Below are positions 1,911 to 64,000 of a DNA stretch of 64,000 nucleotides, piece after piece. This DNA is from Nymphaea colorata (Eukaryota; Streptophyta; Magnoliopsida; Nymphaeales; Nymphaeaceae). Below the pieces are notes generated by a model, which worked only from the letters and a program-made list of their open reading frames with translations, ran no database searches and was not told the DNA's origin. Both the position numbers and the translations under genes were made by a program. How positions within the stretch are numbered: position 1 is the first letter of the stretch; every line of letters begins with the position of its first letter. The DNA lies in contig NC_045146.1 in assembly GCF_008831285.2 (NCBI RefSeq), positions 15,741,149-15,805,148 of the forward strand. The letters run 5' to 3'.

Positions 1911-2294
1911 CATATTAATATTTTGATCATGGTTCAGTAACTGTAAGAAGTTCGAAGGAAACATCCACTAATCTTAATCGTTGAAGCTTCCTAATTGAAA
2001 CTCATATTTTTGGGTTGTATTTTACAAACTATATGAATGTGGCCTTTATATTCGACACTTAGGAATAGAACATAAGTTCTTTCATATGTATAAGTCATAT
2101 TTCATATTAATATTTTGATCATGGTTCAGTAACTGTAAGAAGTTCGAAGGAAACATCCACTAATCTTAATCGTTGAAGCTTCCTAATTGAAACTCATATT
2201 TTTGGGTTGTATTTTACAAACTATATGAATGTGGCCTTTATATTCGACACTTAGGAATAGAACATAAGTTCTTTCATATGTATAAGTCATATTT
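1911..2294. repeat. Tandem duplication, 192-bp period
   Basis: The segment beginning CATATTAATATTTTGATCAT at 1911 repeats from 2103, almost without change, through GTATAAGTCATATT. It is a two-copy direct repeat in AT-rich intergenic DNA upstream of BRK1. The near-perfect identity indicates a recent event. No coding content is seen. Confidence 0.95.
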
Positions 2295-41584: not shown

Positions 41585-41910
41585 AATGTCAAAAAACTTA
41601 AAATATCCTAAATAAAATTGTAGAAATTTTTGAGAATCCAGAAAGTTTTCCTATGGTTTCTGTTTATTATTTTTGTATCGAGCTGGAGTAGTAAGCTTTA
41701 TATAAATACCCACTTTTTGGTAACAAATAGGAAGATATTCTCCCATATCCTTTTCATTGAAGGATAACAGAGTTCTTCATCATATATTAGTCACTTGAAA
41801 TCATAAAATATATATTAAGGGAGTATATGAGCTTAAACGAGTGAGTTTGAGCTTGGACTCAGTTAAACGAGTTGAGAACAAGCTCACCTTATAAAGTTCG
41901 AGTCAAGCTC

Positions 41911-42983
41911 ATAAAGCTTGAGTCAAGCTCACGCCGACTTAGATGTGACTCTAGACAAGTTCGAGCTGGCCGAGCTCGAGCTCGGCTCGCTAGCCCCAGG
42001 CACATGAAGGCATTTGAAATATAAGGCTCTGTTTTTTAGATTATGGCCGAAAAGATGGAATTTTAAATGGCATTTTTATCTTAAAAAATGATAAATTATG
42101 TATTAATTTTTATAATTTTTCATAGGTTAAAGACTAATGGTTTACGGTCAAAGTAATGGGGAGGGCCATCTTGGTGCAAGATGGCTCATTCTATGAACCA
42201 CTCAAATTCTTGCTTCAAGCTTCACCCAAGCCAGAAAAGTTTTTCCTTTCATGCGGTTGAAGCAAACAATGGATCAGATGGTTTTTAAATCTTAATTTTT
42301 GGAATAAATTCTCAAAAAGCCTCTTACCGATATCCAAAATAACAAATCACTCCTTTTGCTTAACGCCCTGTTTGATAGGAGTAAAAGGGAGGGATTGAGC
42401 AATCCCTCCCTTGTTTGGTTAGCGAATTAGAAAGGAGGGAAAGGGAGGGAAAGTGGCAAAACTTGTTTGGCAAGGAGGGGAGGGAAAGGAAAGGAAAGGG
42501 AGGAGAGGGATTGTGTAGTGTGATTCATTTTCCTCCCAAATCGAACGGATTGAGAAAGAAAGACAGATTGAAAAGGAAAGAAAAAGAATGAAAATGAAAA
42601 ATTATAATTTATCGATAATACCCTTCGTGAGGACCCACAATTTGTTGAAGAAGAAACGCCCTTTTCCTCCCCCAAAACCATTGAGTGAGAAGAAACCGAA
42701 ATAGAATGAGCTGTTGCACCAAGATGGCCCTCCCCATTACTTTGACCGTAAACCATTAGTCTTTAACCTATCAAAAATTATAAAAATTAATACATAATTT
42801 ATCATTTTTTAAGATAAAAATGCCATTTAAAATTCAATCTTTTCGGCCATAATCTAAAAAACAGAGCCTTATATTTCAAATGTCTTCATGTGCCTGGGGC
42901 TAGCGAGCCGAGCTCGAGCTCGGCCAGCTCGAACTTGTCTAGAGTCACATCTAAGTCGGCGTGAGCTTGACTCGAGCTTTATA
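41911..42983. repeat. Long inverted repeat upstream of ABCE copy A
   Basis: The left arm 41911-42179 is the reverse complement of the right arm about 42714-42983, nearly identical throughout (CTCTAGACAAGTTCGAGCTG, GGCTCTGTTTTTTAGATTATG and TAATGGGGAGGGCCATCTTG pair with their complements). The spacer of about 534 bases contains a TGTTTG...GGGAGGGATTGAGCAATCCCTCCC MITE-like segment. In copy B only the left arm (about 60065-60352) exists. The outer parts contain CGAGCTCG motifs. Confidence 0.9.
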
Positions 42984-43059
42984 AGTTACCGATAATACCT
43001 TTCGTGAGGACCCACGCCTTGTTGGAGAAGAAACGCCCTTTCCCTTCCCCAAAACCGTT

Positions 43060-43196
43060 GAGAAGAAACCGAAAGAGGCAAGCAACGAACAGGGCGTAAA
43101 CTTGCCAGGAGAGGGCGGTAGGGTTAATTTTGAGGAGAGAAGAAACCGAAAGAGGCAAGCAACGATGAGGGCGTAAACTTGCGAGGAGAGGGCGCC
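43060..43196 (+). repeat. Tandem duplication in the ABCE copy A 5' UTR
   Basis: AGAAGAAACCGAAAGAGGCAAGCAACGA followed by GGGCGTAAACTTG..AGGAGAGGGCG occurs twice (about 43060-43118 and 43138-43196). Copy B of the segmental duplication has the block once (about 61032-61090). Confidence 0.85.
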
Positions 43197-43276
43197 ACAC
43201 ACACAGAGTTCCTTCTCCTGCGAGGAGAGGCCACTCGGGTTTCGGACTGGTACAAGGGGGAAGAGGAGGGGAAGAG

Positions 43277-46200
43277 ATGACTGATCGGCTTACTCGAATT
43301 GCGATCGTGAGCTCGGATCGGTGCAAGCCGAAGAAGTGCTCGCAACAGTGTAAAAAGAGTTGCCCTGTCGTGAAAACAGGTTCGATCTTCTTCTTGGATG
43401 AATTGACCAAGGCTTTTCTTTCCTCTCCGAGGACTGGTTTTTTTTTTTTCCAAAGAGATTTTTTCACGTTTGAAATGGAAGATGCTGCGATGGACTTGTT
43501 TAGGGATGGATCGAATGAAACGTTCTAATGATATCTTATGGGAGTTCCTATGCGAGACAGTGTTGACGTTGACAAATAGTAACTTCGGTGGATCCTCTAC
43601 GTAACATGTTTCTGGTCATGTTGTAAGTTGTAACGTGTCCATGCATCCTAGTTAGATGATATTTGGACCTTATATTGGAGCAACGTAGTTTTACATGTTC
43701 CCAATGATTCTGTCTTTTGTCATTTGTTGCACTATATGTTGTTTAGAATCTGAATATGTTGTTTTGTTTTTCAAAACGATGTTCTCTTACCGAATGAAAT
43801 ATTATTGGCGAAGTTGGGTGATTATTTGTTGTTTTTTTTTTAACATTTCCAATACGCCTTGATCACCTCCAGGTAAGATTGAAATGTTACTTGTGGTGAT
43901 AAATTAACAAAGTTATCGACATGATTTGTCTACTTCGTTCCCATTTTGCATTCTAATCAGAAATCATCATGTCATACTTAGACAAAGAGGCAGTCTGAAT
44001 CTTGACTGCACAGACAGGGGCCCATGGGTATGGGCTGCCAATCAGCAAGCCTGTGTCCACATAGTTTTGTCATGCTTTGACAACTTGAGAGATAAATAGC
44101 TGTCTGCGCATTAAGAAACATTATGCTTAACTCTGGAAATTGTTACCTTGTTTGCCTGTATGGATTTTTTTTCTATTGTGTTGATGAATAAATGTAAGAC
44201 ATTTCTGCCGTGTGTGTGTGTTTGTGTTTTAATAATCGTCAATCTGCATTGGTTCATTTAGAGGTTATAGGTCCACCATATTTGTGACTAGGATAAAATT
44301 TTGTCGTTTGCGAAAAAAAAAGAAGATAAAGGCATCGAAGTGCTTGGTTCAGTTTTTTGTCCTGGTATGAAATTCATGCTGCAGACTGAGCTTTTGGGGA
44401 TTGGGCTGAACGAGATGGAGGGGAACATTAAGAGTTCTCGCTAATCATGAAGCTTGGAAATAAAGCCTTAGGGCAGTGCATAAGCGTGGTTGCAAGGCTC
44501 CTGCTACTTTTATCAATATTAAAAGTATAGGTGAACAGAGTTCAGATTGCAGCAGTTTCTGCCGAAATAGCAATTGACTTTCAATATGGTTTGCAGACCT
44601 GAAATGGAGTGGATAAGCTATCTGGTGGACTAATTGTACCAACTGTGGTCTCTCTACTTTATATGCCCCAAAAGGGGGAATTTGTTGTTGCATTTTTTTG
44701 CATACAATCCACTTTATCAAACAAAAGGGTGGGGACTCTAATCTGAGCAACTGTTTAGGCGAACATACATCTCCCAACAAGATGCTTAGAGGGTGTTTCC
44801 CAAGAGAATATGCATAATGGAGGAAAAAATGAGAAATACATCATCAGCGTGAGATCTAAAAACAACACCAAGGGAGCAAATTTCATCAACTTTTGTAAAA
44901 ACAGAATGACTTGCAGCAGAACAAAAATAATCAACCCCCAAATCAGACCTGGATAGAAGTAAATTATATAGTGAGGGGATCACCATTTCTACCAGACATC
45001 AACCTAACAGAGTATAAAACCCACCTCAGTAATGCCAACATTTAGACGCAAGTCTCCAGCAATGTGATAAAAGTTTAAAACGGTTTAGTAAACAAAAACC
45101 AACAAAATAAACATATAAAAGCCTTTAAAGATGAAAACATGTTTCAAAAATACCACCTTTTAGGATCCACCTCTAAAAAGACAATAGTTTAAATATTATG
45201 ATATTTTAAGAATACCACATAATCCAGGAATTTTCCAAGTTATAAATACACATGCAACTGCGAACATGCAGAGACAAAAGAAATAGATACCTAAAAGGAT
45301 AAAAAATTAAAAGAGAAAAAAGATAAAAAATGGCATTACTTCATCCTAAAGGTGCCACAGCTGTTGACAGGGACACGCAGAGGCTCCATGCTTACTGTCC
45401 TTACTTTCACTTTCTGTGGAAGCACTATGCACAGCAGAACTATAAGCATCTTAAAATCTAGTGAATCAAGAATTATACTTAAGGAGAACCAACATACATA
45501 ACCTAACCAAATGAGAAATGATATCCATGCACTGCCATATGATGTCTCCAGGAAAGTTCCAACTATGGACAGCATATAATGAAAGTTCAACATAAGATGG
45601 ACTTTTTTCAAGTACCACAGCAGTCATTGGTCAATCTCACTATATATTCCAACACAGGATCGAATTTCTTATGCAGCACTCAATCCCTTATAAAAGTTTC
45701 ATCAGTATTAATAGTCCCACTACAATGAAGTCAAACTATTATAATTTTATGGTAGGAACCTTAGCAATGTACCATCAACCTACACCACCAGAAGACATAA
45801 ACCAAGATTCTTCACACCACAAACAAAATCTCCCCAACTTATTAACAAACAGATAAAGAATCCAAAGGCAGTCAGAATCAGCAAAATCAACTTACAAGGA
45901 TGTGGAAAGCAATAGAGCATCATTTTTTTTTTTTGGGGATCTGTTAGTCCTACTTGGTTTTAAAATTTTAATGTTTATTGTACTCTTCTGTCATCAGAAT
46001 GTTTGGAAATTTGGCTTCTATATTGTTGGGGTTAGTGCTTCAGTTATTGAATATTGTTGACCATCTCTTTTAGGGAAGCAATGCATCCAAGTAGACAAAG
46101 CCTCAAAGATTGCTTTCATATCTGAGGAGTTGTGCATCGGATGTGGTATTTGTGTCAAGGTATGTGATCTTGCTTTTTTGATCCTGTTGAATGATCTTCT

Positions 46201-49200
46201 ATCTTATATGGCTTGATTTGGTAACTCTTGGAATGATTATTTTTCGTTTTCATGAATGAAGCAATGTCCATTTAAGGCCATTCAAATTATCAATCTTCCA
46301 AAAGATTTGGATAAAGATACAACACATCGTTATGGGGCGAACACCTTTAAACTGCATAGGTTTGTATGTTACTGCCACAAAAGTCTGTATGTTACTGTTA
46401 ATGTGTGGCATATAGCTCTGTTATCTTGCTCTTGATAACATGAAGTATAACTGTCAAAAATTTGCAGGTTGCCAGTTCCTAGACCTGGACAGGTTCTGGG
46501 TTTGGTTGGGACAAATGGAATTGGAAAGTCAACTGCTCTTAAAGTATTAGCTGGAAAGTTGAAGCCAAACTTGGGTCGTTTTAATGTAATTTTTTGTATT
46601 ACGCAGTGACTTTTTCTTGGACATTTTGCACATTGAAAATGTTGATGACATTATAACATGAGCTTTTTTTTTCTTCTGCAGAATCCACCTGATTGGCAGG
46701 AAATTTTGACTTATTTTAGAGGCTCGGAGCTTCAGAATTATTTTACCCGTATTCTGGAAGATAATCTTAAGGTACTGTGTATGATCATAATTGCCTAACA
46801 TTATGACCATCCTCTCCTCTGGGTATGATTTAACCAACATCAATTGAAGATTATGTTTAAGAGCAGTTTGTAGAAATGCTTATGAAAAGTGAAAAGGTCC
46901 ACATATTTTTTTTGCTGTCAGTGGTTTTTCCATATTTTCTTGATGAAGGTCCGATAAACTTGCAGCTAATGTGCAGTAGTAGACCGCTTAATGCTTGCAG
47001 GTACTGTGATCTGCATGTTCAAATTTTTATTTGGAAACCAGTGAATGTTTAGGCAATAACTATTGAATGATTTGCGTAAGTGATATTATTGTGTTTTAAA
47101 AAATAGAACATGATAAAGATCCCAAATTTTTGTAATCAAGGAAAGGACAAAGCTGTTGCATAAGGCAGCATGATTGAAGGTCAGTTCTTATCTGATCGGA
47201 CAACAAATCTCATCTACATGGGCAAATGTGGCAAGACAGCCAAAAAATGTTCTGATTCTATCTCATCATGTCTAAGTAGTAGCATATAGTAGCATCTATA
47301 TTCCAAAAATTTTTGTATTTTGAACAGGCAATTATCAAGCCTCAATATGTTGACCACATACCGAAAGCAGTGCAAGGAAATGTGGCTCAGGTGCTTGATC
47401 AAAAGGATGAAAAGCATATGAAAGCAGAGCTTTGCGACGAACTTGAGTTAAATCAGGTTATAGATAGGAATGTTGGTGATTTATCAGGTGGAGAGCTTCA
47501 GCGGTTTGCTATTGCAGTGGTGGCAATTCAGAGTGCAGAAATATATATGTTTGATGAGCCATCAAGTTATCTTGATGTGAAACAGAGGCTAAAAGCTGCA
47601 CAAGTTATTCGGTCATTGCTTCGGCCTAATAGGTATGTCTTCCACATGATTTCTCTGTTGTGCTTCAAGCATTCTGTTATGGATTTTAAGGATCAGCCTG
47701 AACGTGACATCGTCTTATCTTTCTTTTCTTCCAGCTATGTGATTGTCGTTGAACATGATCTTAGCGTCCTAGATTACCTTTCGGACTTCATTTGTTGTCT
47801 CTATGGGAAGCCAGGGGCTTACGGGGTTGTAACACTTCCTTTCTCTGTTAGAGAAGGTATTAACATATTCTTAGCAGGATTTGTTCCAACTGAAAATCTT
47901 CGGTTTCGTGACGACTCTCTTACTTTTAAGGTAACTAATTAAATGTTTGACTACCAGTTGTTTAGCTGTTTGATTGTTGGTTACTATTGAATGTATATTT
48001 ATTGTGCAGGTTGCAGAGACAGCACAGGAAAGTGCTGAAGAGATACAAACTTATGCAAGGTATAAATATCCAACCATGACAAAAACACAGGGAAGTTTTA
48101 AACTTCATGTTGTTGAGGGTGAATTTACTGACTCCCAGATTATTGTAATGCTGGGGGAGAATGGGACTGGGAAGACGACATTTATCCGAATGCTGGTACA
48201 AGATTTGTGACGTGATATAATAGTTTTGATTAAATGTTCCTTTTGTACATGTTCTGTGGTGGATTCAATCTACCGAAATTATGTCTACTTGTTTTGTTTT
48301 GGATTAGCATGTGTATATGGATTGTCCACTAAGTGTAACTTTCTGCAGGCAGGTCTTTTGCAACCTGACTCAGTGGAGGGCTCAGAGTTGGAAATACCTG
48401 AGTTTAATGTTTCTTACAAACCACAAAAAATAAGTCCAAAGTTCCAGTCAACTGTTCGCGACTTGCTGCATAAAAAAATCCCAGATTCTTATATGCATCC
48501 CCAATTTGTGTCAGATGTCATGAAGCCGCTCCAATTACAACAGTTAATGAACCAAGAGGTCATTAATCTTTCTGGTGGAGAATTGCAGAGAGTAGCATTA
48601 TGTGTATGTCTTGGCAAGGTAAAATGTCACATTGTCAAGTCCTTTTTATATACTTCATTTGTCTCTTGCTTTGTGTGTGTTTGTGTATGTGTGGAGAGAG
48701 AGAGGAGGAAGCTTGTTCATGAAAGCTTTTTTCTTTTCAAGAATTCAAGGATGTTTCTAGTAGAAAAATTTATTAATGAGAAGGGCTGAAGTATTAATGT
48801 TGAAGGAAGGCTTTATTAAGATATTTTCAAACTGAATCTTGTGGCTAACAGTTATCCGGAAGAGAAACAAGTTCCAGCTAAAATTGTTACTGGAAAGCTA
48901 CCTGTGGGATCTGGATATTTTTGCAACGGCAATTGTAGTTCTCCATACCATTCTTGAAACTGTCATCTCAGAATTACATTGAATCCACACAAACTGGATG
49001 GTTTTTCCCAATGTCCCATAGGATCAAAAGCAGCTATCATAGAAATTGATGGTACAGATGAATTGGAACAGCTTTTGTTGTGGATCACGCTTTGGATTTT
49101 CAAAATATCCTCGTTGTCTATGCCATAAAGTTTGACTATTGTAGGTCATGGACTTTGAATGTCTTTGTTACCAATTTAATTCACCTGTAAATGTTTTATT

Positions 49201-49890
49201 TTTCTGACATCTGAATATTTCTTCAGCTGTTTTTTGTCATGCACCTCACATCATCCACTTTTACTGAAATTCAAGTGTACTGTAGCCAAATAAATGATTC
49301 ACACATTAAAAACCATAGGTTGGACAAGCCACTGGCTAGTCAAAATCTAGCCAACTGAAAGAGTTGCACCGAGCAGCCCAACGATTTCAAAGGGTGGGTT
49401 GCTGGTTTGTCATCTCAAGGAATAACTCATGCTTTGATGCAGCCTGCGGATATTTATCTGATTGATGAGCCAAGTGCGTACCTGGACTCAGAGCAGCGTA
49501 TAGTGGCTTCTAAAGTCATAAAGCGATTCATCCTTCATGCTAAGAAGACTGCGTTTGTGGTGGAGCATGACTTTATAATGGCAACATACCTTGCTGATCG
49601 AGTTATTGTTTACGAGGGGATACCATCCTTGGATTGTGTTGCTAATGCTCCCCAGTCCCTCTTGACAGGGATGAATCTTTTCTTGTCGGTAAGCTAATTG
49701 ATTCCTAGTTTCTTTGTATCATGGATTCTCTCCAGGAAGTGGTTTGTCATTCCATGGTGATTTTGTGCAGCATTTGGACATTACTTTTAGAAGAGATCCG
49801 ACCAACTATAGGCCCCGCATAAACAAGCTTGATTCTACTAAAGACAGGGAACAGAAGGCTGCTGGTTCCTATTACTACCTGGATGATTGA
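43277..49890 (+). CDS. ABCE: ABC transporter E family / RNase L inhibitor-like ribosome-recycling ATPase
   Basis: Exons 43277-43379, 46074-46159, 46262-46359, 46468-46585, 46682-46771, 47328-47632, 47735-47930, 48010-48195, 48349-48618, 49443-49688 and 49771-49890 give 605 residues, the canonical ABCE length. ABCE1/Rli1 is a cytosolic Fe-S ATPase that splits ribosomes after termination and acts in initiation; it has no membrane domain despite the family name. Visible motifs: two Fe-S clusters ([15 protein letters not shown] and [12 protein letters not shown]), Walker A1 GTNGIGKST (Lys116), signature LSGGELQ (217-223), Walker [13 protein letters not shown], Walker A2 GENGTGKTT (Lys387), signature 2 LSGGELQ (468-474) and Walker B2 [12 protein letters not shown]. 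All junctions are GT-AG and in frame. Intron 1 (2.7 kb) splits the codon for Gly35 inside the Fe-S domain. No lesion is seen. A partial copy follows at 54.4 kb and a second gene copy starts at 61.19 kb. Confidence 0.96.
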
Positions 49891-49945
49891 AGCAGCTCCC
49901 TCTGCTGGTTCCTATTACTACCTGGATGATTGAAGCAGCTCCCTT
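49861..49945 (+). repeat. 42-bp duplication spanning the ABCE stop codon
   Basis: GCTGGTTCCTATTACTACCT...GATTGAAGCAGCTCCC begins at 49861 and again at 49903. The first copy provides the true C-terminus (AGSYYYLDD, stop) and the second lies in the 3' UTR with a redundant stop. The protein is unaffected. Confidence 0.95.
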
Positions 49946-50869
49946 TGCAGGTTTCCCACAGTTGCACCATGTGATTATTAGATACACTCATTTTGTTCAC
50001 TTCTACAGTTTCACTATTCTTTTTGACCAGGTTTCAGGGTGCCCATCTGGGATTCTGGTGGCAGATTTAACTCTGCTGGCTATATACCTTGTTGAAGCGT
50101 CATTTGGTGATGGTGATGATGCAGTCTGCTCGACAAAGGGGCCTAATTGAAGTATTCTTGATGTTCAGTTTTTCCAGAGTTCCATAGCAACAAATGTAGA
50201 TCTTCCGTTAGTGCTATGCAGACGGGTTATGTCTTGAAGGATGCTGCATTTTGAGTTTTTTACCTGCATGTCTACTGTTGAAGGCTTTTGTGTAGTTTGC
50301 TACATTATGTCCCATGCTTCAGTGCAGGGGCAGTTAATGAGTTTTGGTCGGTGAATAAGTTGAAATTAGAATGGTCCATTTGACAATCATATGTGCTGCT
50401 TGAAAATTCTTGTTGTGAATTTGTAGCCTTCCTTTGTTCTTTCCCATTGCATGAACGTATTTGACAGAGAGAGAGAGCATCTAGCGGCTGAAGTCTATGG
50501 TGTTAAGCGTTTCATGCTACTGATAATCAGAGAGCGATTGGAGCCTGCTAAATCAATCACTAACGATGACATCTCTTCCTACAAAAATGTGAATACAGAT
50601 CATAATAAGAACCACTCCATCTTCAAGAAATAGCCTGCGCATATCTTCAAAGCTGGTGGTTTCATCAGCTGTGCGTCCGTTGAGGGTGAAAAAGCAATAT
50701 CCCTATCAAAGGCTAAACCTACGAAAACTATCATTCAAGGTATCAGTCACGAAGTTCTCCCTTGCACACTCTCTCTTCATGTTTAAAGAGAGAGAGAAAG
50801 AGATGATAGCCGATAGGAAAACAAAAAGCTGCAGGATCACGGATTCAACGGTTATGGTTAATATGTTTA
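49946..50869. other. ABCE 3' flank
   Basis: Probable 3' UTR followed by sequence with no recognised gene. Short GA tracts lie near 50465 and 50790. Confidence 0.5.
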
Positions 50870-51319: not shown

Positions 51320-52260
51320 TGAATGATCAAAGAGAGGAGCTAAGTTAGTTTTTATTTCTCGAAAAGAAATCACGACGATGCGATGTGGTCGATACGGCTC
51401 GCTTATCTGATAAGCGACTCTGTTTTTTAGGCATTTACTCACGGTTCGGACATTGTTGGTTTTCGACTTTGCGTCGTTTTTCATATTCGGAAAAAAAAAA
51501 AAAAGTAATGTAACAAAAAGTTTACCTTTTATCAGTGCAGGGCAGGAGGAACTTGGACACTAGCGTCTTCAGATTGCTCAACTGAATACCTTCCATTAAA
51601 CCACCAGCCAGAATGGCTAGATCTTCTGCTCTGAGCCATCCATTTTGCTTAGAATGCAATTAATATATAACAAGCCGCCGATGAAGTTACATTTTGATGT
51701 TGGAAGATTGCTTGGCGGAAGTGGCCACAGTTGGAAGATTGCTTGCAGGAATGTCCGAACAACGATCAATTGATTGAAGCCTACGCTGGACCTTGCCAGC
51801 AAGATTGTCTGGAACTTTGGAAAAGAGCAATTTAATTGCTAGGTTTCCTCTTGGGAGCATCCGCAGCTTGGTGGAAGAACTCTTTTGATGCGTCTGCAGA
51901 TTTGATAAACAATTTTAAGACCAAGTCATGATTAATATTTAAAAGGATATAAGTTTGACAAAGTGAACTAAATTCACTAAGCACAACTACGAGCATTTAA
52001 GCAATACCATGCTCCATCGTCAGTGATGAATCTCTTCATTCCACACATCCAATCACCTTCGCGGGGATTCCTTCAACTATACTGCAGACCAAGAAAAGCA
52101 AAAAAAATAATATTAGACTTTTCTAATCAAATTATTTAGAAAAATACAAACGAGCATTTTGAAATTAACAAAACTTTGGACAGGTTATATACAAATATTT
52201 AAAGCTCCTCCCGTAGCTCGACTTCTTGGCGCCCTCTCCCAAATTTAATTCGTAACGAAC
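51320..52260. other. Intergenic DNA
   Basis: No gene is recognised. A CTTGGCGGAAGTGGCCACAGTTGGAAGATTGCTTG-type local repetition of GGAAGATTGCTTG occurs at about 51702-51745. The remainder is AT-rich. Confidence 0.45.
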
Positions 52261-52269
52261 GGTGTTAGC

Positions 52270-52560
52270 TTCTCTCGACGTGCATGGTACCACAGTAGCA
52301 TCGCCCGACCCACATCCGATCACCGGCGGCTCTTCCCTCGACCTAGCATCGCCCGATCACCGACGGCTCGACGTGCATGGTACCACAGTAGCATCGCCGG
52401 ATCACCGACGGCTCGACGTGCATGGTACCACAGTAGCATCGCCGGATCACCGACGGCTCGACGTGCATGGTACCACAGTAGCATCGCCCGACCCACATCC
52501 GATCACCGGCGGCTCTTCTCTCCACCTAGCATCGCCCGATCACCGACGGCTGAGAAGGAA
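52270..52560 (+). repeat. 45-bp tandem repeat array upstream of the F-box gene
   Basis: The motif CGACGTGCATGGTACCACAG starts at 52276, 52369, 52414 and 52459: two exact 45-bp spacings and one 93-bp spacing carrying an extra segment with CACATCCGATCACCGGCGGC. That segment recurs at the end of the array (52490-52550), giving a symmetrical higher-order pattern. The array is GC-rich, has GGTACC palindromes and stays open in one frame (LDVHGTTVASPDHRR units), but that frame has no ATG. Confidence 0.9.
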
Positions 52561-52720
52561 CACACACCGGCTAGAGTTTCTCTCGACGTAATTTTCACCC
52601 AAATCCGATCACCGACAAGGAACGCACGCCGGCAGTAGCTGTCGCTGCTACTTTTCTGGCAACCTTCACGATTGGGAAAAAGAAGTGTTGGCCAAGGAGG
52701 GATTAGACGCCCGAATTAGC

Positions 52721-53965
52721 ATGGAGGACGAGGGCAACAATCTTTGCCAGGACGAGGGCAAGAATCTTGCTTCTGAAGGAGGGATTTGCATGAAGGACGA
52801 GGATGCATCGGTGTGCCATCTGTTCATCAGCGATGACGTGCTGGTGGAAATCCTCCTGCGCCTTCCAGTGAAGGCCTTGCTCAGGTTCAGATGCGTCTGC
52901 AAGGAGTGGCGTCTACTGATTGACTCACAGGATTTTGTAGCAGCCCACCTTCATTTCGCCAGGCTCCAACAGCGACCCTCCTTCATCATTGATCAGGACC
53001 AGGAACTATGTGTCTTCGATGCGCAGCATATCCGTTTTAGAGTTTTGAAGGATATCTGGCGCCAGACCTTGGCAGCCAAGTTTAGTGACGATATTAACGT
53101 CGAGTTGCATGATTACCTTACCCTCTATTGCTGGAGCGATGATGGTCTCTGTTGTATGGGCATAAACGTTTCTTTCTTGCTTTGTAGAAGACATGTCTTT
53201 CAGATCATCAACCCTGCTACGCGGAGCAGCTTCATTCTTCCATTGTGCGGCATCTGCTATCCAAATATGTGTGAAATCATTAGTGATCCCACTTCGAAGG
53301 TCTACAAATTGCTTGTCGTGGAGGATTTTCATGGGATTAAGGCCAAGCTATTCTCCATGGGCGTTGACATTTCATGGAGGAACCTTGATGGAGCGATTCC
53401 TAGTGTCAACCGACCATGGGTCCCTAAGCCCCTCGTAAATGGGGCCATCCATTGGATATTCTCTCACGATACAGTTTCGGGTGTAGCAGCTTTCGACATA
53501 GACTGTGAGAGGTTTCGAAATGTTGGATTGCCAGAAAGTCTATTGCTTAATGTGAATCTTGATTTCCTTGCCAATTTTCAAGGGTCTCTATTTGTGGTTC
53601 GTGTTGACGTTGCAGGCCTAAAGATAGAATTATGGCTGTTGGAGGATTATCGTAATCTTCTCTGGGTGAAAAAACGTGTCATTGATTTTCCTTTTCTTCA
53701 CATTGCAGTGGGTGCGGATGATGCATCCACAACCTATATGGGCACGATACATGACGACGAGATTCTTTTTCTGTTGCGTGTAGAAAATGTGTCAGAGAAC
53801 AACATCTCAATCAAAAACTACACCATCTCCTACAGTCCCGATCGCGAAAGGGTGGAAACCATGGAGTTTAGAGTTGGGAAACCGTATGGTGATATCAGTC
53901 TGTACATTGAGAGCCTTGTCCACGTGAATGCTACTGAACTTGGAAATAATCCTCCAGGTAAATAA
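52721..53965 (+). CDS. F-box protein with F-box-associated (FBA) domain
   Basis: From the ATG at 52721 the frame runs 414 residues to the stop at 53963-53965. After an acidic N-terminus, residues about 36-75 form an F-box (ISDDVLVEILLRLPVKALLR, then FRCVCKEWRLLI), which binds the SKP1 adaptor of SCF ubiquitin ligases. The rest resembles the FBA/kelch-like substrate region of plant F-box proteins (INPATRSSFILPL, WVPKPLVNGAIHWI, AAFDIDCERFRNVGLPES, LWLLEDY). The frame is uninterrupted. Near its end a donor (CCTCCAG/GTAAAT at 53957/53958) could splice in frame to a second exon at 54216 (separate entry), which would give a 497-residue form. The substrate is unknown. The 45-bp repeat array lies in the upstream region. 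Confidence 0.85.
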   Translation: MEDEGNNLCQDEGKNLASEGGICMKDEDASVCHLFISDDVLVEILLRLPVKALLRFRCVCKEWRLLIDSQDFVAAHLHFARLQQRPSFIIDQDQELCVFDAQHIRFRVLKDIWRQTLAAKFSDDINVELHDYLTLYCWSDDGLCCMGINVSFLLCRRHVFQIINPATRSSFILPLCGICYPNMCEIISDPTSKVYKLLVVEDFHGIKAKLFSMGVDISWRNLDGAIPSVNRPWVPKPLVNGAIHWIFSHDTVSGVAAFDIDCERFRNVGLPESLLLNVNLDFLANFQGSLFVVRVDVAGLKIELWLLEDYRNLLWVKKRVIDFPFLHIAVGADDASTTYMGTIHDDEILFLLRVENVSENNISIKNYTISYSPDRERVETMEFRVGKPYGDISLYIESLVHVNATELGNNPPGK

Positions 53966-54215
53966 TTTCAGGTTATAGCTTATCCCTAGAAGTATTTTGT
54001 TGATTCCAATCAGAGAAGAATCCAGTTAACCATTTGGGCATTTGTTCTGAATCTTCTGATTATCATCATCTTGAGGCTTAGTTTAGTTCCATGCAAGTAA
54101 ACTAGCATGGTGAAGTTTAACAAGCTGGAACTAGGGAAGGGTACATATATGCATGTCTTTTGCTCTTGGAGTTCTCTCTTTTCTTACCCTACTATCTCTT
54201 GTATGTTCTGTGCAG

Positions 54216-54472
54216 ATAAGTGGTTCAGCAGTGATGATGGTGGCAATGATGATCTTGGTGATTTTTATGGTGATGATGGTGGTGATGATGATGGTGGTAG
54301 TGATGTTGGTAATGGTGGTGATGATGATGGTGGTGATGATGATGGTAGTGATGTTGGTAATGGTGGGAATGATGGTGGTGGTGATGATGACGGTAGTGAT
54401 GTTGATGATAATGGTGGTAATGATGATGGTGGTTTTCGTGATGACTCTCTTATTTTTAAGGTAACTAATTAA
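54216..54472 (+). CDS. Possible second exon of the F-box gene: Asp/Gly repeat fused to ABCE residues
   Basis: The acceptor TTCTGTGCAG ends at 54215. Splicing from 53957 keeps the frame (phase 1) and reads DKWFSSDDGGNDDLGDF, then about 60 residues of Asp, Gly, Asn, Ser and Val from GAT/GGT codons, and then GFRDDSLIFK, which is the end of ABCE exon 7, before VTN and a stop at 54472. The ABCE-derived splice donor (AAG/GTAACT at 54460/54461) is retained. Whether this exon is used is unknown; the signals and frame permit it. Confidence 0.5.
54228..54432 (+). repeat. GAT/GGT trinucleotide-based tandem repeat
   Basis: Imperfect runs of GATGATGGTGGT with interspersed AGTGATGTTGGTAATGGTGG blocks, spaced about 45 bases at 54299, 54347 and 54392. 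It encodes Asp/Gly in the plus frame and Ile/Thr on the other strand. It ends exactly where homology to ABCE begins. Confidence 0.9.
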
Positions 54473-55815
54473 ATGTTTGACTGTCAGTTGTTTAGCTGTT
54501 TGATTATTGGTTACTATTGAATGTATATTTGTTGTTACAAACTTATGCAAGATATAAATATCCAACCATGACAAAAACACAGAGAAATTTTAAACTTCGT
54601 GTTGTTGAGGGTGAATTTACATACTCCCAGATTATTATAATGCTGGGGGAGAATGGGACTGAGAAGACCACATTTATCCGAATGCTGGTACAAGATTTGT
54701 GGCGTGATATAATAGTTCTGATTAAATATTCTTTTGTACATGTTCTGTGGTGGATTCAATCTACTGAAATTCTATCTACTTGTTTTGTTTTGGATTAGCA
54801 TGTGTATATGGTATGTCCACTAAATGTAACTTTCTGCAGGCTCATCTTTTGAAACGTGACTCAGTGGAGGGCTCGGAGTTGGAAATACCTGAGTTCAATG
54901 TTTCTTACAAACCACAAAATATATGTCCAAAGTTCCAGTCAACTGTTCGCGACTTGCTGCATGAAAAAATCCCAGATTCTTATATGCATCCCCAATTTGT
55001 GTTGGATGTCATGAAGCCGCTCCAAATACCACAGTTAATGGACCAAAAGGTCATTAATCTTTTTGGTGGAGAAATGCAGAGAGTAGCGTTATGTCTATGT
55101 CTTGGCAAGGTAAAATTTCACATTGTTGAGTCCTTTTTATGTACTTCATTTGTCTCTTTGCTTTGTGTGTGTTTGTGTATGTGTGGAGAGAGAGAGAGAG
55201 GAGGAAGCTTGTTCATGAAAGTTTTTTTCTTTTCAATAATTCAAGCATGTTTCTGGTAGAAAAATTTATTAATACCAAGCGTTGAAGTGTTAATGTTGAA
55301 GGAAGGCTTTATTAAGATATTTGCAAACTGAATCTTGTGGCTAACAGTTATCAGGAAGAGAAACAAATTCTAGCTAAAATTATTACTGGAAAGCTACCAG
55401 TGGGTTCTGGATATATTTGCAACAGATAAATTATAGTTCTCCATACCATTCTTGATACTCTCATCTGAGAACGACTTTGAATCCACACAAACTGGATGGT
55501 GTTTCTCAACGTCCCATAGGATCAAAAGCAGCTATCATAGAATTTGATGGTACAGAGGAATTGGAACAGCTTTTGTTGTGGATCACGCGTAGGATTTTCA
55601 AAATATCCTGGTTGTCAATGCCATAAAGTTTGACTACTGTAGGCCATTGACTTTGAATGCCTTTGTTACCAAATTAATTCACCTGTAAATTTTTTATTTT
55701 TCTGACGTCTGAATATTTCCTTGGTTGTTTTTTGTCATGCACCTCACATCATCCACTTTTACTGAAATTCAAGTGTACTGTAGGCAGATAAATGATTCAC
55801 ACATTAAAAACCCAT
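54431..55815 (+). pseudogene. ABCE: Partial ABCE copy (end of exon 7 to intron 9)
   Basis: It matches 47912-49317 of the intact gene: last 10 codons of exon 7, intron 7, exon 8 remnant (about 54537-54687), intron 8, exon 9 (54840-55109) and most of intron 9. Differences: about 46 bases including the exon 8 acceptor and first 13 codons are lost; Walker A2 GENGTGKT is changed to GENGTEKT; signature 2 LSGGELQ is changed to LFGGEMQ. Exon 9 keeps its full 270-base length and open frame. Exon 10 is absent; homology stops in the intron before it. Introns are retained, so it was copied as DNA, not from mRNA. It cannot make a working ATPase. Confidence 0.92.
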
Positions 55816-56643
55816 ATTAGAAACAAGTGAATGCGAAAGCTTTAGGGTTAGCTAAATGAAAGCCATCCCTCGATCTCTTATATCTGAAATCCTCATCCCT
55901 TAAGGACGTTCACTTTCTGGTGTTGGAGCGGCAATACCAGGCATGAAAACTGTATATATTAGTACATAAGTGATTCTGATGCAACAGAAACTATTTCTGC
56001 ACTAAATCCTTCGGGCGTGCAAATTTTAAGTTATGTTTACATACTTAGTTTCCATCTTGATGCACCTTATTCTGCTAGCTAACATTTTCTTAAAGTTTGA
56101 CCTGTTGTTCCCCTGATGCATCATCATCAAAAATACTTCTGGAACACTGCTAACTTCTTTATTTTGGATACATCAGGTCTAGTCCTCAAGTTCTCTAGTA
56201 GTGTCATTTTCTTGCTCATACTCTGTGCGAGGATATTTGCAAAAGTCTTCACGGGCTATTTTATCTCTTTACAAAGGACTGGCATGCTTACATAGAGGCT
56301 ATGTTTGTTGAGGTTTACGTAACTGTTGGCCTTGATGAAAGAAACTGGATATCTAAAAGAATTAGAATGAAATCTCAGTTCAAATATAACATCCATATGG
56401 CTGTGAATGTTGTTGTTTATATATGTCATCATCGACATTTGAATTCAGTCCGCATAATGTTCTAACGGTTCCTTCATCCGGGAACTTATCTCAGGTAGCA
56501 TATCAATGTGCCAGTGTCTTTTTTTCTTTTCAGAATGGGAAAAAAATTGTTTCTATAGTAGGAAACAAGATGAAGGATAAAAGATGACAATGGTATGTAA
56601 CGTAATTTAAACATATGCACTAGCAAATTATTTGTCCTTTAAA

Positions 56644-56676
<33 letters not shown>

Positions 56677-57234
56677 AGTACAGTGATGCACCTAATTGCA
56701 GAAGCTTAGAGATAGGCTGGTCTTAGCAGGTGCGTTTCTTCTTTAAACGAAGATCACATCCTACAGAAGTTAAAAAGGTTCTCTGTCAGACTGGTGTCTG
56801 CCTGCCTACCCTTTTTCTACATTTTCATTTTTCAGTAAATCTGATGTCCATGAGAGTATAGTTTTTAGTATGGTCTATAAATGCTGATACCTATTTTTCA
56901 TGTGGTTTATTAATAAAATTTGATGCTTGTTTCCTGAATTTTATGAAACATTCCTTGTGAATCTTCTCTATGTCTGCTACTGGTATTCTTCCTAACTGTT
57001 TGTGGCCTTGGGCACCTATCTTGACTATGCAAATGTTAAAATCATTTTACAACGAGTGAGTATCTTAGTACCTAAACAGCACGCAACTACTTTTCAAATG
57101 AGCCAGGAAATTTGCACTTGAAACAGATCGTAGTAGGATTTTTCTTAGAATAATGCCTAGTGGACCCAGTGGTCATCAACTCTCATGTATGGATTAACTT
57201 GATTGCTTGCTGTTCTTCTGTGTTATTTTTTTAG
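55816..57234. other. Intergenic DNA between ABCE and HSP70 fragments
   Basis: No gene is recognised. An AT microsatellite lies at about 56643-56671. I looked for the first HSP70 exon (mitochondrial presequence) here and did not find it. Confidence 0.5.
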
Positions 57235-58801
57235 GTTAACAGCTCAAGCAGTTCTTATGGAAGTTCCATTTCATACCACAGATGGATGAGAGCCTTCAGG
57301 TATTGAATCAGCTACCAGACATTGTGGCCCCTTAAACATTTGAAACTTTTCCTTTATTCCTGCTAACATAAACCGTGCTTTTTGCAGCTCAAAACCTGCT
57401 GGAAATGATGTCATTGGAATTGATCTGGGTACCACTAATTCTTGTGAAGCAGTTATGGAGGGCAAGGTTGTTATGGTTATTATTTTTTTCTGATTAGTAA
57501 TTGAATTGTGAAAATGCTAATTTTCTTGCATTTGATATAGAATGCAAAAGTGAAAGAAAACTCTGAAGGTGCCCGGACTACCCCTTCGGTTGTTGCTTTC
57601 AACCAGAAAGGAGAATTGCTTGTGGGAACTCCAGCTAAGCGTCAAGCAGTAACTAATCCAACAAATACACTCTTTGGAACCAAGCGGCTTATAGGAAGAC
57701 GTTTTGATGATCCACAAACTCAGAAAGAGATGAAGATGGTTCCTTACAAGATTGTAAAGGCACCCAATGGAGATGCATGGGTTGAAGCAAATGGACAGCA
57801 GTACTCACCAAGTCAAATTGGTGCCTTTGTTCTCACAAAGATGAAGGAAACTGCAGAGTCATACCTTGGCAAATCTGTTAGCAGGGCTGTGATCACCGTT
57901 CCTGCTTATTTCAATGATGCTCAAAGGCAGGCCACAAAAGATGCAGGAAGGATTGCAGGACTTGATGTGCAGAGAATTATTAATGAGCCAACAGCTGCTG
58001 TACTTTCTTATGGATTAAACAATAAGGAGGGCCTAATTGCTGTCTTTGATCTAGGTGGTGGGACGTTTGATGTTTCAATACTGGAGATCTCCAATGGTGT
58101 ATTTGAGGTATTTCTTTTTTATGATTAACCATCGTCTGTTACTGGAACTTGGAGCTGCTAATCATTAATTTCCTGTGTTAATTGTTGTCCGTTTTTTCCA
58201 GGTCAAAGCAACAAACGGTGACACCTTTTTGGGTGGGGAAGATTTTGACAATTCATTGCTGGAGTTCCTAGTGAGTGAGTTCAAGAGAACTGAGGCAATA
58301 GACCTTTCAAAAGACAGATTGGCTTTGCAAAGGCTTCGAGAAGCAGCAGAGAAAGCAAAAATAGAGCTGTCATCAACGGCCCAAACGGAGATCAATCTGC
58401 CATTCATTACAGCAGATGCATCTGGTGCAAAACATTTGAATGTCACACTGACAAGGTCTAAGTTTGAGACCTTGGTCAATCACCTAATTGAGCGAACAAG
58501 AAATCCTTGCAAGAATTGCTTGAAGGACGCGGGCATATCCACTAAGGATGTTGATGAAGTTCTTCTGGTTGGTGGAATGACACGAGTTCCAAAAGTTCAA
58601 GAAACTGTCACAGAGATCTTTGGCAAGAATCCAAGCAAAGGAGTTAATCCTGATGAGGCAGTGGCAATGGGTGCTGCAATTCACGGAGGCATACTTCGTG
58701 GTGATGTGAAGGAGTTGCTTCTCTTGGATGTTACTCCGCTGTCACTTGGTATTGAGACCCTTGGTGGTATTTTCACAAGGTTGATCAACAGAAACACCAC
58801 G
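57235..58801 (+). pseudogene. HSC70: Truncated mitochondrial-type HSP70 gene copy with introns
   Basis: Exon-like segments 57235-57299, 57388-57466, 57541-58107 and 58202 to about 58801 join in frame from SYHRWMRAFSSKPAGNDVIG through the ATPase domain. The SSKPAGNDVIG block marks the presequence border of plant mitochondrial HSP70. Nucleotide-binding motifs are intact: phosphate-1 IDLGTTNSC, phosphate-2 [14 protein letters not shown], adenosine [11 protein letters not shown], and the linker region [18 protein letters not shown]. The first exon is missing upstream, and after LINRNTT the sequence departs from the family at about 58801, removing most of the substrate-binding domain. Full-length proteins are about 680 residues; about 390 are encoded here. 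The clean frame suggests recent duplication. A true mitochondrial chaperone cannot be made from this copy alone. Confidence 0.88.
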
Positions 58802-59492
58802 AAGAAAACATGCTATATTTTTGCAGAGACAAGCTTTTGTGAGTAAAATCTCTTTATACATGTATAAACAAACACTCAATGAAGTGGAGTAACTAGGTTT
58901 ATTAGTTGCTTTTATGTTTGCAGACTGGTGAAATGGCTTTGACTCAGTTTTACATTTTTGGCTTCACACTGTGCAAATTCAGCTACTTCAAATGAATAGT
59001 GTTGTGGTGCAATTTCATATATTGTGCTAGTTCACTTTTCTCTGTATAGGAATTGAAGACCAACAATATACCACTTGAAAATGTTCGCATATGCTATTCT
59101 CCATTTGCAAGAACACGTGAAACAGCCGAAGTTGTGGCTAGTGTACTAAACATTCCTTTTGGAAGTCAACTATGTAAGGTCAATACTTCTAACTTCCATA
59201 TGTATAAATTCTGCTGGTCCATCATGCTATGCTATTTGAAGCCACATGTTGCAATGTAGTGAAGACTAAATCCTCCAAGTAGATATGTGACTAATTTTAG
59301 GAGTTTCTTGTTGTAACTGGATAGTCATTGATCATGATATCCTTTTGAAACTGGCCTAGCTTGCTGGGAATTCAAGGAATTTAATTTAAGCTTCCCACTG
59401 TTAATGATGGTGGCATTATTGTTGAATAGGAAATGGAAGATCTTCGAGAGCGTTTCTTTGGTCCGACGTTCGAGCTTCTGTCCCATGAAAAA
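58802..59492 (+). pseudogene. Fragment of a histidine-phosphatase (phosphoglycerate mutase-like) gene
   Basis: Two GT-AG bounded exons, 59050-59178 and 59430-59492, encode ELKTNNIPLENVRICYSPFA, RTRETAEVVASVLNI and EMEDLRERFFGPTFELLSHE. The RTRETAEV block is the hallmark after the second conserved region of the phosphoglycerate mutase-like histidine phosphatases. The N-terminal RHG catalytic motif and the C-terminal half are absent. A third possible exon end lies at 58823-58838 (donor GTGAGT at 58839), directly abutting the HSP70 break. Homology ends before 59731. It is a stranded gene piece in the same orientation as the HSP70 and ABCE fragments. Confidence 0.75.
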
Positions 59493-61185
59493 GTATGTAT
59501 TTCATGATAATTTTTCCTGGAAGCTTTATTACTTATAAATAAAAAATACTGGAAAAAGGAAGCCTGAAGTGAATTCTGTCATTGTTTCTGCTTTTTATGC
59601 TGATTTAAGTTGAAATCTTTTCACGAGCACTCTCTGTGAAAAAATGTTGGCATGGAAATGGTTATCTGATAGTCAATACTTTGTATCCAAGATACGGTAC
59701 CAAGTGCCAATTTGCTTCGAGAGTTTTCGTAATGTCAAAAACTTAAAATATCCTAAATAAAATTGTAGAAATTTTAAACAGGCTAAGCTATATAGAGAAT
59801 CCAGAAATTTGGGGCATAAATGTGCTCCTTATTGGTTTTCTTATGGTTTCTGTTTATTATTTTTGTATAGAGCTAGAGTATTAAGCTTTATATAAATACC
59901 TACTTTTTGGTAACAAATAGGAAGATATTCTCCCATGTGTATCCTATTATTGAAAGATAACAAAGTTCATCATCATATATCGGTCGCTTGAGAGCATAAA
60001 ATATATATTAAGGGAGTATACGAGCTTAAACGAGTCGAGCTTGACCTTGGACTCAGTTAAACGAGTTGAGAACAAGCTCACCTTATAAAGCTCGAGTCAA
60101 GCTCAAGCCGAGTTGAATGTGACTCTAGACAAGTTCGAGCTGGCCGAGCTCGAGCTCAGCTCGCTAGCCCAAGGCACATGAAGACATTTGAAATATAAGG
60201 CTCTGTTTTTTAGATTATGGCCGAAGAGATGGAATTTTAAATGACATTTTTATCTTAAAAAATGATAAATTATGTATTAATTATTATAATTTTTCATAGG
60301 TTAAAGACTAATGGTTTAGGATCAAAGTAATGGGGAGGGCCATCTTGGTGCAAGATGACTCATTCTATGAACCACTCAAATTCTTGCTTCAAGCTTCACC
60401 CAAGCCAGAAAAGTTTTCCCTTTCGTGCGGTTGAAACAATTGATCAGATGCTCAGTTTTTAAATCTTAATTTTTGGAATAAATTCTCAAAAAGCCTTTTA
60501 CCGATATGCAAAATAACAAATCACACCTTTTGCCTAACGTTCTGTTTGGTAGGAAGGAAAGGGAGGGATTGAGCAATCCCTTCTTTGTTTGGTTAGCGAA
60601 TTAAAAAGGAGGGAAATAGAAAAAAAGTGGCAAAACCTGTTTGGCAAGGAGGAGCAATCCCTCCCTTGTTTGGTTAGCGAATTAAAAAGGAGGGAAATGG
60701 AAGGAAAGTGGCAAAACCTGTTGGGAAAGGAGGAGAGGGAAAGGAAAGGAAAGGGAGGGGAGAGATTGTGTAGTGTAATTCTTTGAAAAGGAAAGAAAAA
60801 AAATGAAGATGAAAAATTATAACTTACCGATAATACCAACGAAGGACCCACGCCTTAAACGCCCTTTCCGTCCCCCAAAACCGTTGAGAAGAAACCGAAA
60901 AAGGCATGGAAAGGAAAAAAATGAAATGAAAAATTATAGTTTACCGATAATACCCACGAAGAACCCACGCTTTGTCGATAAGAAACGCTCTTTCCCTCCC
61001 CCCAAAACCGTTTCCCTCCCCCAAAACCGTTAGAAGAAACCGAAAGAGGCAAGCAACGAACAGGGCGTAAACTTGCGAGGAGAGGGCGGTAGGGTTAATT
61101 GCGAGGAGCACACAGAGTTCCTTCTCCTGCGAGGAGAGGCCACTCGGGTTTCGGACTGGTACAAGGGGGAAGAGGAGGGGAAGAG

Positions 61186-61288
61186 ATGACTGATCGGCTT
61201 ACTCGAATTGCGATCGTGAGCTCGGATCGGTGCAAGCCGAAGAAGTGCTCGCAACAGTGTAAAAAGAGTTGCCCTGTCGTGAAAACAG
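61186..61288 (+). CDS. ABCE: ABCE second copy, exon 1 (gene continues off the window)
   Basis: The exon is identical to 43277-43379 and encodes [20 protein letters not shown] and the first Fe-S ligand block [14 protein letters not shown]. The donor is identical. Intron 1 (61289-63981) is almost identical to that of copy A, and exon 2 begins at 63982 with the last 19 bases of the window. Whether the rest of the gene is intact cannot be seen. If it is, the plant carries tandem ABCE genes with nearly the same proximal promoter and 5' UTR. Confidence 0.9.
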
Positions 61289-63981
61289 GTTCGATCTTCT
61301 TCTTGGATGAATTGACCAAGGCTTTTCTTTCCTCTCCGAGGACTGGTTTTTTTTTTTTCCAAAGAGATTTTTTCACGTTTGAAATGGAAGATGCTGCGAT
61401 GGACTTGTTTAGGGATGGATCGAATGAAACGTTCTAATGATATCTTATGGGAGTTCCTATGCGAGACAGTGTTGACGTTGACAAATAGTAACTTCGGTGG
61501 ATCCTCTACGTAACATGTTTCTGGTCATGTTGTAAGTTGTAACGTGTCCATGCATCCTAGTTAGATGATATTTGGACCTTATATTGGAGCAACGTAGTTT
61601 TACATGTTCCCAATGATTCTGTCTTTTGTCATTTGTTGCACTATATGTTGTTTAGAATCTGAATATGTTGTTTTGTTTTTCAAAATGATGTTCTCTTACC
61701 GAATGAAATATTATTGGTGAAGTTGGGTGATTATTTGTTGTTTTTTTAACATTTCCAATACGCCTTGATCACCTCCAGGTAAGATTGAAATGTTACTTGT
61801 GGTGATAAATTAACAAAGTTATCGACATGATTTGTCTACTTCGTTCCCATTTTGCATTCTAATCAGAAATCATCATGTCATACTTAGACAAAGAGGCAGT
61901 CTGAATCTTGACTGCACAGACAGGGGTTCCCATGGGTATGGGCTGCCAATCAGCAAGCCTGTGTCCACATAGTTTTGTCATGCTTTGACAACTTGAGAGA
62001 TAAATAGCTGTCTGTGCATTAAGAAACATTATGCTTAACTCTGGAAATTGTTACCTTGTTTGCCTGTATGGATTTTTTTTCTATTGTGTTGATGAATAAA
62101 TGTAAGACATTTCTGCCGTGTGTGTGTGTTTGTGTTTTAATAATCGTCAATCTGCATTGGTTCATTTAGAAGTTATAGGTCCACCATATTTGTGACTAGG
62201 ATAAAATTTTGTCGTTTGGGAAAAAAAAAAAAAGATAAAGGCATCGAAGTGCTTGGTTCAGTTTTTTGTCCTGGTATGAAATTCATGCTGCAGACTGAGC
62301 TTTTGGGGATTGGGCTGAACGAGATGGAGGGGAACATTAAGAGTTCTCGCTAATCATGAAGCTTGGAAATAAAGCCTTAGGGCAGTGCATAAGCGTAGTT
62401 GCAAGGCTCCTGCTACTTTTATCAATATTAAAAGTATAGGTGAACAGAGTTTAGATTGCAGCAGTTTCTGCCGAAATAGCAATTGACTTTCAATATGGTT
62501 TGCAGACCTGAAATGGAGTGGATAAGCTATCTGGTGGACTAATTGTACCAACTGTGGTCTCTCTACTTTATATGCCCCAAAAGGGGGAATTTGTTGTTGC
62601 ATTTTTTTGCATACAATCCACTTTATCAAACAAAAGGGTGGGGACTCTAATCTGAGCAACTGTTTAGGCGAACATACATCTCCCAACAAGATGCTTAGAG
62701 GGTGTTTCCCAAGAGAATATGCATAATGGAGGAAAAAATGAGAAATACATCATCAGCGTGAGATCTAAAAACAACACCAAGGGAGCAAATTTCATCAACT
62801 TTTGTAAAAACAGAATGACTTGCAGCAGAACAAAAATAATCAACCCCCAAATCAGACCTGGATAGAAGTAAATTATATAGTGAGGGGATCACCATTTCTA
62901 CCAGACATCAACCTAACAGAGTATAAAACCCACCTCAGTAATGCCAACATTTAGACGCAAGTCTCCAGCAATGTGATAAAAGTTTAAAACAGTTTAGTAA
63001 ACAAAAACCAACAAAATAAACATATAAAAGCCTTTAAAGATGAAAACATGTTTCAAAAATACCACCTTTTAGGATCCACCTCTAAAAAGACAATAGTTTA
63101 AATATTATGATATTTTAAGAATACCACATAATCCAGGAATTTTCCAAGTTATAAATACACATGCAACTGCGACATGCAGAGACAAAAGAAATAGATACCT
63201 AAAAGGATAAAAAATTAAAAGAGAAAAAAGATAAAAAATGGCATTACTTCATCCTAAAGGTGCCACAGCTGTTGACAGGGACACGCAGAGGCTCCATGCT
63301 TACTGTCCTTACTTTCACTTTCTGTGGAAGCACCATGCACAGCAGAACTATAAGCATCTTAAAATCTAGTGAATCAAGAATTATACTTAAGGAGAACCAA
63401 CATACATAACCTAACCAAATGAGAAATGATATCCATGCACTGCCATATGATGTCTCCAGGAAAGTTCCAACTATGGACAGCATATAATGAAAGTTCAACA
63501 TAAGATGGACTTTTTTCAAGTACCACAGCAGTCATTGGTCAATCTCACTATATATTCCAACACAGGATCGAATTTCTTATGCAGCACTCAATCCCTTATA
63601 AAAGTTTCATCAGTATTAATAGTCCCACTACAATGAAGTCAAACTATTATAATTTTATGGTAGGAACCTTAGCAATGTACCATCAACCTACACCACCAGA
63701 AGACATAAACCAAGATTCTTCACACCACAAACAAAATCTCCCCAACTTATTAACAAACAGATAAAGAATCCAAAGGCAGTCAGAATCAGCAAAATCAACT
63801 TACAAGGATGTGGAAAGCAATAGAGCATCATTTTTTTTTTTTGGGGATCTGTTAGTCCTACTTGGTTTTAAAATTTTAATGTTTATTGTACTCTTCTGTC
63901 ATCAGAATGTTTGGAAATTTGGCTTCTATATTGTTGGGGTTAGTGCTTCAGTTATTGAATATTGTTGACCATCTCTTTTAG
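61289..63981 (+). other. Intron 1 of ABCE copy B (and its twin at 43380-46073)
   Basis: The 2.7-kb first introns of the two ABCE copies are nearly identical. Minus-strand open frames of 111, 66 and 91 codons are conserved between them, but this follows from the recent duplication and none resembles a known family. A GT tract lies at about 62117-62131. Confidence 0.7.
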
Positions 63982-64000
63982 GGAAGCAATGCATCCAAGT

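Follow-up and report, generated by a model that had tools for sequence, protein, structure and literature searches.

The nearest precedent that we found, by analogy, for the locus described here is fog-2 of C. elegans, an F-box gene in which an altered terminal exon gives binding to GLD-1 (PMC539060; PMC3449122). In the available portions of these two reports, the new end of fog-2 is described as recruited noncoding sequence of the neighbourhood (PMC3449122) and as an end that has diverged by substitutions and indels (PMC539060). As an example, fog-2 shows that an altered end can create a new partner. In plants, gene fragments can be captured by elements such as Pack-MULEs and Helitrons. Literature searches yielded nothing relevant on an F-box-ABCE fusion, on acidic tails of plant F-box proteins, or on gene conversion among F-box genes. 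The F-box family to which the gene described here belongs is the FBA_3 family, which we take to be plant substrate receptors of SCF complexes.

We analyzed a window of 64,000 nucleotides of Nymphaea colorata DNA, located on contig C9, in which the coding parts of two genes, one encoding an F-box protein and the other ABCE, are joined in one open frame. Probably this is an F-box receptor gene of two exons, the second of which is without its native 3′ end and is closed instead by borrowed ABCE sequence. The features on which the argument depends are as follows, in window coordinates unless a contig is named.

46073 to 49889, plus strand: ABCE copy c1, with an open frame of 571 codons over exons 2-11, closely related to the donor of the ABCE fragment
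51419 to 52151, plus strand: upstream patchwork, with pieces like C13:2168982-2169194 (98% and 91%) and C9:12727981-12728437 (88%)
52721 to 53957, plus strand: F-box gene exon 1 with the F-box and FBA_3 domains, 412 codons and one base, ending in a phase-1 donor
53958 to 54215, plus strand: phase-1 intron of 258 bases, common to the paralogues L029 and L028
54216 to 54433, plus strand: acidic Asp/Gly repeat section of the terminal exon, assigned to the F-box subfamily itself on the basis of position, intron, and composition
54434 to 54460, plus strand: duplicated end of ABCE exon 7, which continues the tail in frame as FRDDSLIFK
54461 to 54472, plus strand: retained ABCE splice donor; if it is unused, the frame closes with VTN and the stop at 54470-54472
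54434 to 55816, plus strand: ABCE genomic fragment, comprising the exon 7 end, an intron, exon 8 without its 5′ end and acceptor, exon 9, and part of the next intron
54840 to 55109, plus strand: ABCE exon 9 copy, open for 90 codons in phase 0, with the signature LFGGEMQ for LSGGELQ
55819 to 58800, plus strand: HSP70 gene fragment, 93% identical to C9:15734055-15737031
58801 to 59726, plus strand: piece 99% identical to C9:12752406-12753331 (minus strand), with sub-threshold His_Phos_1 similarity

The ATG at 52721 opens the F-box ORF, and exon 1 is 1237 nt long, with G53957 as its last base, in phase 1. The donor reads CAG/GTAAAT, with the intron starting at 53958 and running to 54215, where the acceptor (...GTGCAG/) ends. 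The frame is kept in exon 2 (54216-54460), which encodes ...NNPPDKWFSSDDGG...DDGGFRDDSLIFK, an Asp/Gly repeat followed by FRDDSLIFK, and the read-through product of exons 1 and 2 has 497 aa. A previous sequence-only reading of this DNA had described the phase-1 donor, the acceptor at 54215, and a stretch at 54840-55109 open in phase 0, and rereading the sequence found all of these, coordinates and frames included, to be correct. Its statement that the F-box frame runs through the Asp/Gly repeat into codons of ABCE exon 7 is likewise confirmed, the ABCE part amounting to nine residues, FRDDSLIFK. Between 54216 and 54433, only one of the three reading frames contains a stop, and the in-frame meeting of the Asp/Gly repeat and the ABCE frame is a 1-in-3 chance event. 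Directly upstream of the F-box gene, a 45-base unit is repeated 3.2 times at 99% (52344-52488).

Splice sites were scored with a small matrix derived from 10 donors and 11 acceptors of the window, assigned by hand from homology without cDNA. Within 52200-55999, the F-box donor ranked first of 247 GT dinucleotides and the F-box acceptor third of 209 AG dinucleotides, the latter with a score of 7.7 at the low end of the training range (7.6-15.1). In the same interval, the ABCE-derived donor at 54461 ranked fourth of 247 and the acceptor at 54839 first of 209, a rank obtained with the parental twin of that acceptor in the training set.

DNA and protein searches of the window's own genome located two close F-box relatives, L029 and L028, about 280 kb upstream on the opposite strand. 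Exon 1 of L029 ends as it does in the window gene, and the predicted L029 protein of 563 residues is read across a phase-1 donor (CAG/GTAAAA), an intron of 1063 bases, and an acceptor CGCAG/. L028 is a 91% copy of L029 with broken frames, and its intron, in the same place, has 1057 bases. The 258-base intron of the window gene aligns to the 3′ part of the L029 intron (about 76-81% identity by alignment). Since the intron has the same position and phase in L029 and L028, the splice from 53957 to 54216 is very probably genuine, and we take the recurrence of donor, phase, and acceptor in two paralogues as stronger evidence than the matrix ranks. The L029 tail (L029rc from 5034) comprises 154 residues, 58 of them Asp or Glu, compared with 30 of 85 in the window tail, and its residues are varied (VEYEREVEFGFDWDD) beyond what a bare GAT repeat would give. 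The intron and acidic tail are most likely native to the F-box gene, not newly acquired, because L029 and L028 carry the same phase-1 intron followed by an acidic terminal exon. The two tails are likened by position, intron, and composition alone, being repeat-like and not alignable as proteins; at the DNA level, only short low-complexity matches connect them, and the L029 tail used as a protein query returned L029 and two L028 pieces but not the window tail. The sequence-only reading had proposed a new chimeric gene with a very acidic tail, and the entry of the tail into ABCE codons in frame stands, but the acidic tail itself is most likely the F-box gene's own.

The phase-1 intron with an acidic terminal exon occurs in three of the 10 F-box loci examined (28 F-box matches overall) and the ABCE-derived end in one. 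The F-box paralogues L063 and L062 end at ordinary stops, and we detected no acidic stretch in either or in five further F-box loci scanned. The intron and acidic exon thus either date back to the common ancestor of this small group or were passed between its members. Neither the native tail end of L029 nor its 3′ flank had a match in the window between 50 and 60 kb. Two other origins for the Asp/Gly repeat were considered and discarded. One is a new insertion between the F-box and ABCE sequences, since in the paralogues, too, this intron is followed by an acidic terminal exon. The other is a piece of a wider repeat family: 13 of the 21 matches to the F-box DNA query cover the GAT/GGT repeat only, none of these 13 places overlaps a listed F-box match, and among the nine of them that were scanned two (L026 and L027) contain their own open acidic stretch and seven do not.

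Exon 1 matches the Pfam F-box (PF00646, 39.3 bits, cut-off 20.5) and FBA_3 (PF08268, 37.4 bits, cut-off 20.7) domains. An AlphaFold2 model of exon 1 built from four sequences is of low confidence (mean pLDDT 56.6, pTM 0.56) and consists of F-box helices and then strands up to residue 382, with pLDDT below 50 from residue 383 on. The top PDB matches of the model are Kelch propellers, with query TM-scores of 0.23-0.41 among the 50 listed, and the substrate domain is probably propeller-like. The model fits, at low confidence, a receptor that is complete inside exon 1, with the tail as an extension. Compared with L029, exon 1 has a dN of 0.42 and a dS of 1.17 over 390 codons, a pairwise dN/dS of about 0.36. 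Across 382 columns, 44 replacements are found in the window gene only and nine in L029 only, and the branch dN is 0.28-0.30 for the window exon 1 vs. 0.13-0.15 for L029. Exon 1 of the window gene may be under relaxed constraint because it changes faster than its sister L029. In a neutral simulation of the time since the fusion, with substitutions only, exon 1 was stop-free with a probability of 0.135 at 5% divergence and 0.049 at 8%, and its intactness is therefore only moderate evidence for a live gene. The excess of replacements in the window gene, the patchwork of gene fragments around it, and the broken frames of the sister copy L028 would all suit a dying gene, that is, a patchwork-truncated F-box locus that is now an unexpressed or nonfunctional relic, a state compatible with the other readings considered here. 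We regard it as somewhat unlikely, with exon 1 and the tail fully open, both Pfam domains above their cut-offs, and the dN/dS ratio on the other side.

Relative to L029, the intron of the window gene has diverged less than the synonymous sites of exon 1. The intron differs from that of L029 at 58 of 242 sites and the fourfold sites of exon 1 at 45 of 85 (Fisher p 1.5e-6). In the control pair L028-L029, the same part of the intron differs at 0.069 and exon 1 at 0.064; the intron is not unusually constrained in that pair because the two differ about equally. The comparison points to an exchange of the 3′ end with an L029-like gene, later than the divergence of exon 1. The signal is carried by one pair only, however, and third-position differences tend to drop along exon 1 until the last block has 13 of 38, which counts against over-reading the exchange. 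A bolder and doubtful extension would make the gene a live F-box receptor whose C terminus has been replaced at least two times, by exchange of an L029-type intron and tail and then by the ABCE end. On this view, local patchwork duplication that replaces the terminal exon would let F-box receptors change partners, a process caught here at an early stage, and an alternative isoform would add ABCE exon 9 and could reach an HSP70 exon in phase 0.

When the window is compared with itself and aligned with three ABCE copies, ABCE homology starts at 54434, inside exon 7, and ends at about 55816. The 1.38-kb fragment is a DNA copy because introns are included, and a retrocopy origin was rejected on that ground; the chimeric gene would accordingly be a product of DNA-level duplication. 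The fragment is 91-92% identical in DNA to the neighboring c1 and c3, and over about 1440 sites its distances are 0.091 to c1, 0.076 to c3, and 0.092 to c4 (c1-c3, 0.042), values that are slightly too high because about 20-45 flanking bases not homologous in the fragment are included. Exons 7 and 9 of c1 lie at 47735-47930 and 48349-48618, c3 lies mostly past the window end (C9:15805000-15809303), and c4 is at C9:17.577 Mb. In exon 9 (48349-48618 and L030), c1 and c3 have replacements at positions where c4 retains the aligned ABCE1 residue, e.g., KIPDSYM for KIRDSYM, and the tandem ABCE copies may be drifting. A 43-base tandem duplication covers the last codons and stop of c1 (49859-49953).

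No selection on the copied ABCE exon is visible. At codons where the other three ABCE copies agree, the fragment-specific changes in exon 9 are seven nonsynonymous to one synonymous; eight changes make a weak test and are compatible with neutrality. Pairwise, the exon 9 fragment has a dN of 0.069-0.075 and a dS of 0.035-0.128. The other copies' own exon 9 changes (nonsynonymous to synonymous) are 3:2 in c1, 3:0 in c3, and 2:4 in c4, and exon 9 of c1 and c3 does not appear strongly constrained either. Under neutral simulation, 270-base exons remained open in 53% of runs at 5% divergence and in 40% at 8%, and the openness of exon 9 therefore says little. The 90-aa exon 9 piece had no Pfam match at E 0.01. 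Complete nucleotide-binding domains with a P-loop and LSGGELQ, by which an ABCE1/RLI ATPase is recognized, are not found in the fragment: its P-loop reads GTEKTT, its signature is changed, and 38 bases including the exon 8 acceptor are missing. The sequence-only reading had spoken here of part of a ribosome-recycling ATPase; a working role for such a part is not supported, in view of the same changes, the weak 7:1 count, and the lack of exon 10, and an exon 9 kept for ATPase function was rejected on the changes and the count. A true F-box-ABCE chimera, in which the 54461 donor is spliced to the 54839 acceptor and 90 further ABCE residues are made and used, is unlikely. Both sites are strong and inherited from the ABCE gene, the phases fit at the 54460/54840 junction, and exon 9 is open, but exon 9 is without a sign of selection, its signature is altered, and the ABCE copy stops short of exon 10, the frame running about 49 codons into the intron to a stop. 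The exon 9 donor (55110) is also in phase 0, in which HSP70 exon 2 (57235-57299) opens into exon 3, both lying within 57235-57466; an in-frame F-box-ABCE-HSP70 chain is formally open as far as HSP70 exon 3, with a low score (5.65) for the acceptor at 57234.

The ABCE fragment is one tile of a patchwork island at 51.4-59.7 kb. Upstream of the F-box gene, 51569-51702 resembles C13:2168982-2169115 (98%) and 51715-52151 resembles C9:12727981-12728437 (88%). Downstream, the HSP70 gene at C9:15734055-15737031 continues past the point where the window copy breaks off. An open stretch at 59050-59256 matches the histidine phosphatase family at 13.2 bits, below the cut-off of 21.7, and is perhaps another captured gene piece. 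A genome search found no recent donor for the F-box segment at 52.2-54.4 kb. The island sits between two tandem ABCE units, with 41.6-46.1 kb repeated at 59.8-64.0 kb and then into c3; the tandem duplication carrying ABCE spans 41645-46092 and 59835-64000, with 98.8% identity over 43138-46092. An exact 192-base tandem duplication is present elsewhere in the window (1911-2294). The tile shared with the island upstream of the F-box gene is at C13:2.169 Mb, and the same contig holds ABCE exons in several broken, repeated pieces with stops (L033, C13:2181379-2185806). A search for exact matches between two stretches only, 51.1-52.7 kb and 58.7-60.0 kb, found no 12-base inverted or direct repeats. 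Because such repeats are absent between these outer stretches, end-joining or template-switching repair would be the simplest guess for how the island was built. The island may instead be the work of a gene-capturing transposon, a Pack-MULE or Helitron, an origin that we set aside for the lack of exact 12-mer terminal repeats in the two stretches, although the ends of such an element may have diverged or lie elsewhere.

It is quite improbable that no splicing occurs and that the F-box gene ends at 53963-53965, the rest being 3′ UTR or unrelated: the unspliced ORF is intact up to this stop, two codons past the splice point, and L063 and L062 do end at ordinary stops, but donor, acceptor, phase, and acidic open exon recur in L029, with varied tail residues, and the F-box donor holds the top matrix rank. 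The reading we prefer remains the two-exon F-box receptor with a borrowed ending. In such a protein, the F-box would bind SKP1 and the propeller of exon 1 would bind the substrate, and the phase-1 intron would lead into an acidic Asp/Gly tail that is probably disordered. DNA-level duplication would have set the 1.38-kb piece of the neighboring ABCE gene, and then HSP70 and other pieces, at the end of the tail. Most likely the gene would encode the 497-aa F-box protein, its acidic tail closed by FRDDSLIFKVTN, with the ABCE codons supplying an ending and no ATPase function; the predicted ABCE contribution to the tail is nine residues only. We infer transcription, splicing, SCF function, and a role for the tail from the sequence. 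If it is transcribed, the locus would be a young natural experiment in a new C terminus for a substrate receptor of the ubiquitin system, with donor family, junction, and approximate age all legible within one genome. If it is not, it would be no more than what patchwork duplication ordinarily leaves behind around a tandem ABCE array.

Comparison with known systems places the locus as follows. It resembles Pack-MULE and Helitron capture in that several gene fragments of different origin are adjacent, introns included, and differs in that no exact 12-base repeats, which might mark an element boundary, were found between its compared outer stretches. Its ABCE part is like ABCE1/RLI in being a close DNA copy of c1 and c3 with introns, and unlike it in being confined to parts of exons 7-9, in which the P-loop and signature are changed and the exon 8 acceptor is missing. 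Like the FBA_3 F-box family, the gene scores above the cut-off for both Pfam domains and has relatives clustered on the same chromosome; it differs in having the intron and acidic terminal exon seen in a minority of the loci examined and an ABCE-derived end found, among those loci, in it alone. Compared with fog-2 as described in these two papers, the end of the window gene is a recognizable copy of another gene, of nine to twelve residues unless exon 9 is used, and it is known from sequence alone. On the same accounts, both are F-box genes belonging to a local group of paralogues, with a terminal-exon C terminus that was changed or newly made after duplication and with purifying selection dominating the whole gene. 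Like the chimeric gene duplicates described in the available part of PMC3449122, the locus brings together gene fragments of separate origin along with their introns. The re-ending of a terminal exon by neighboring DNA is, at the level of the DNA, real, instructive, and of a known kind, and its use is predicted.
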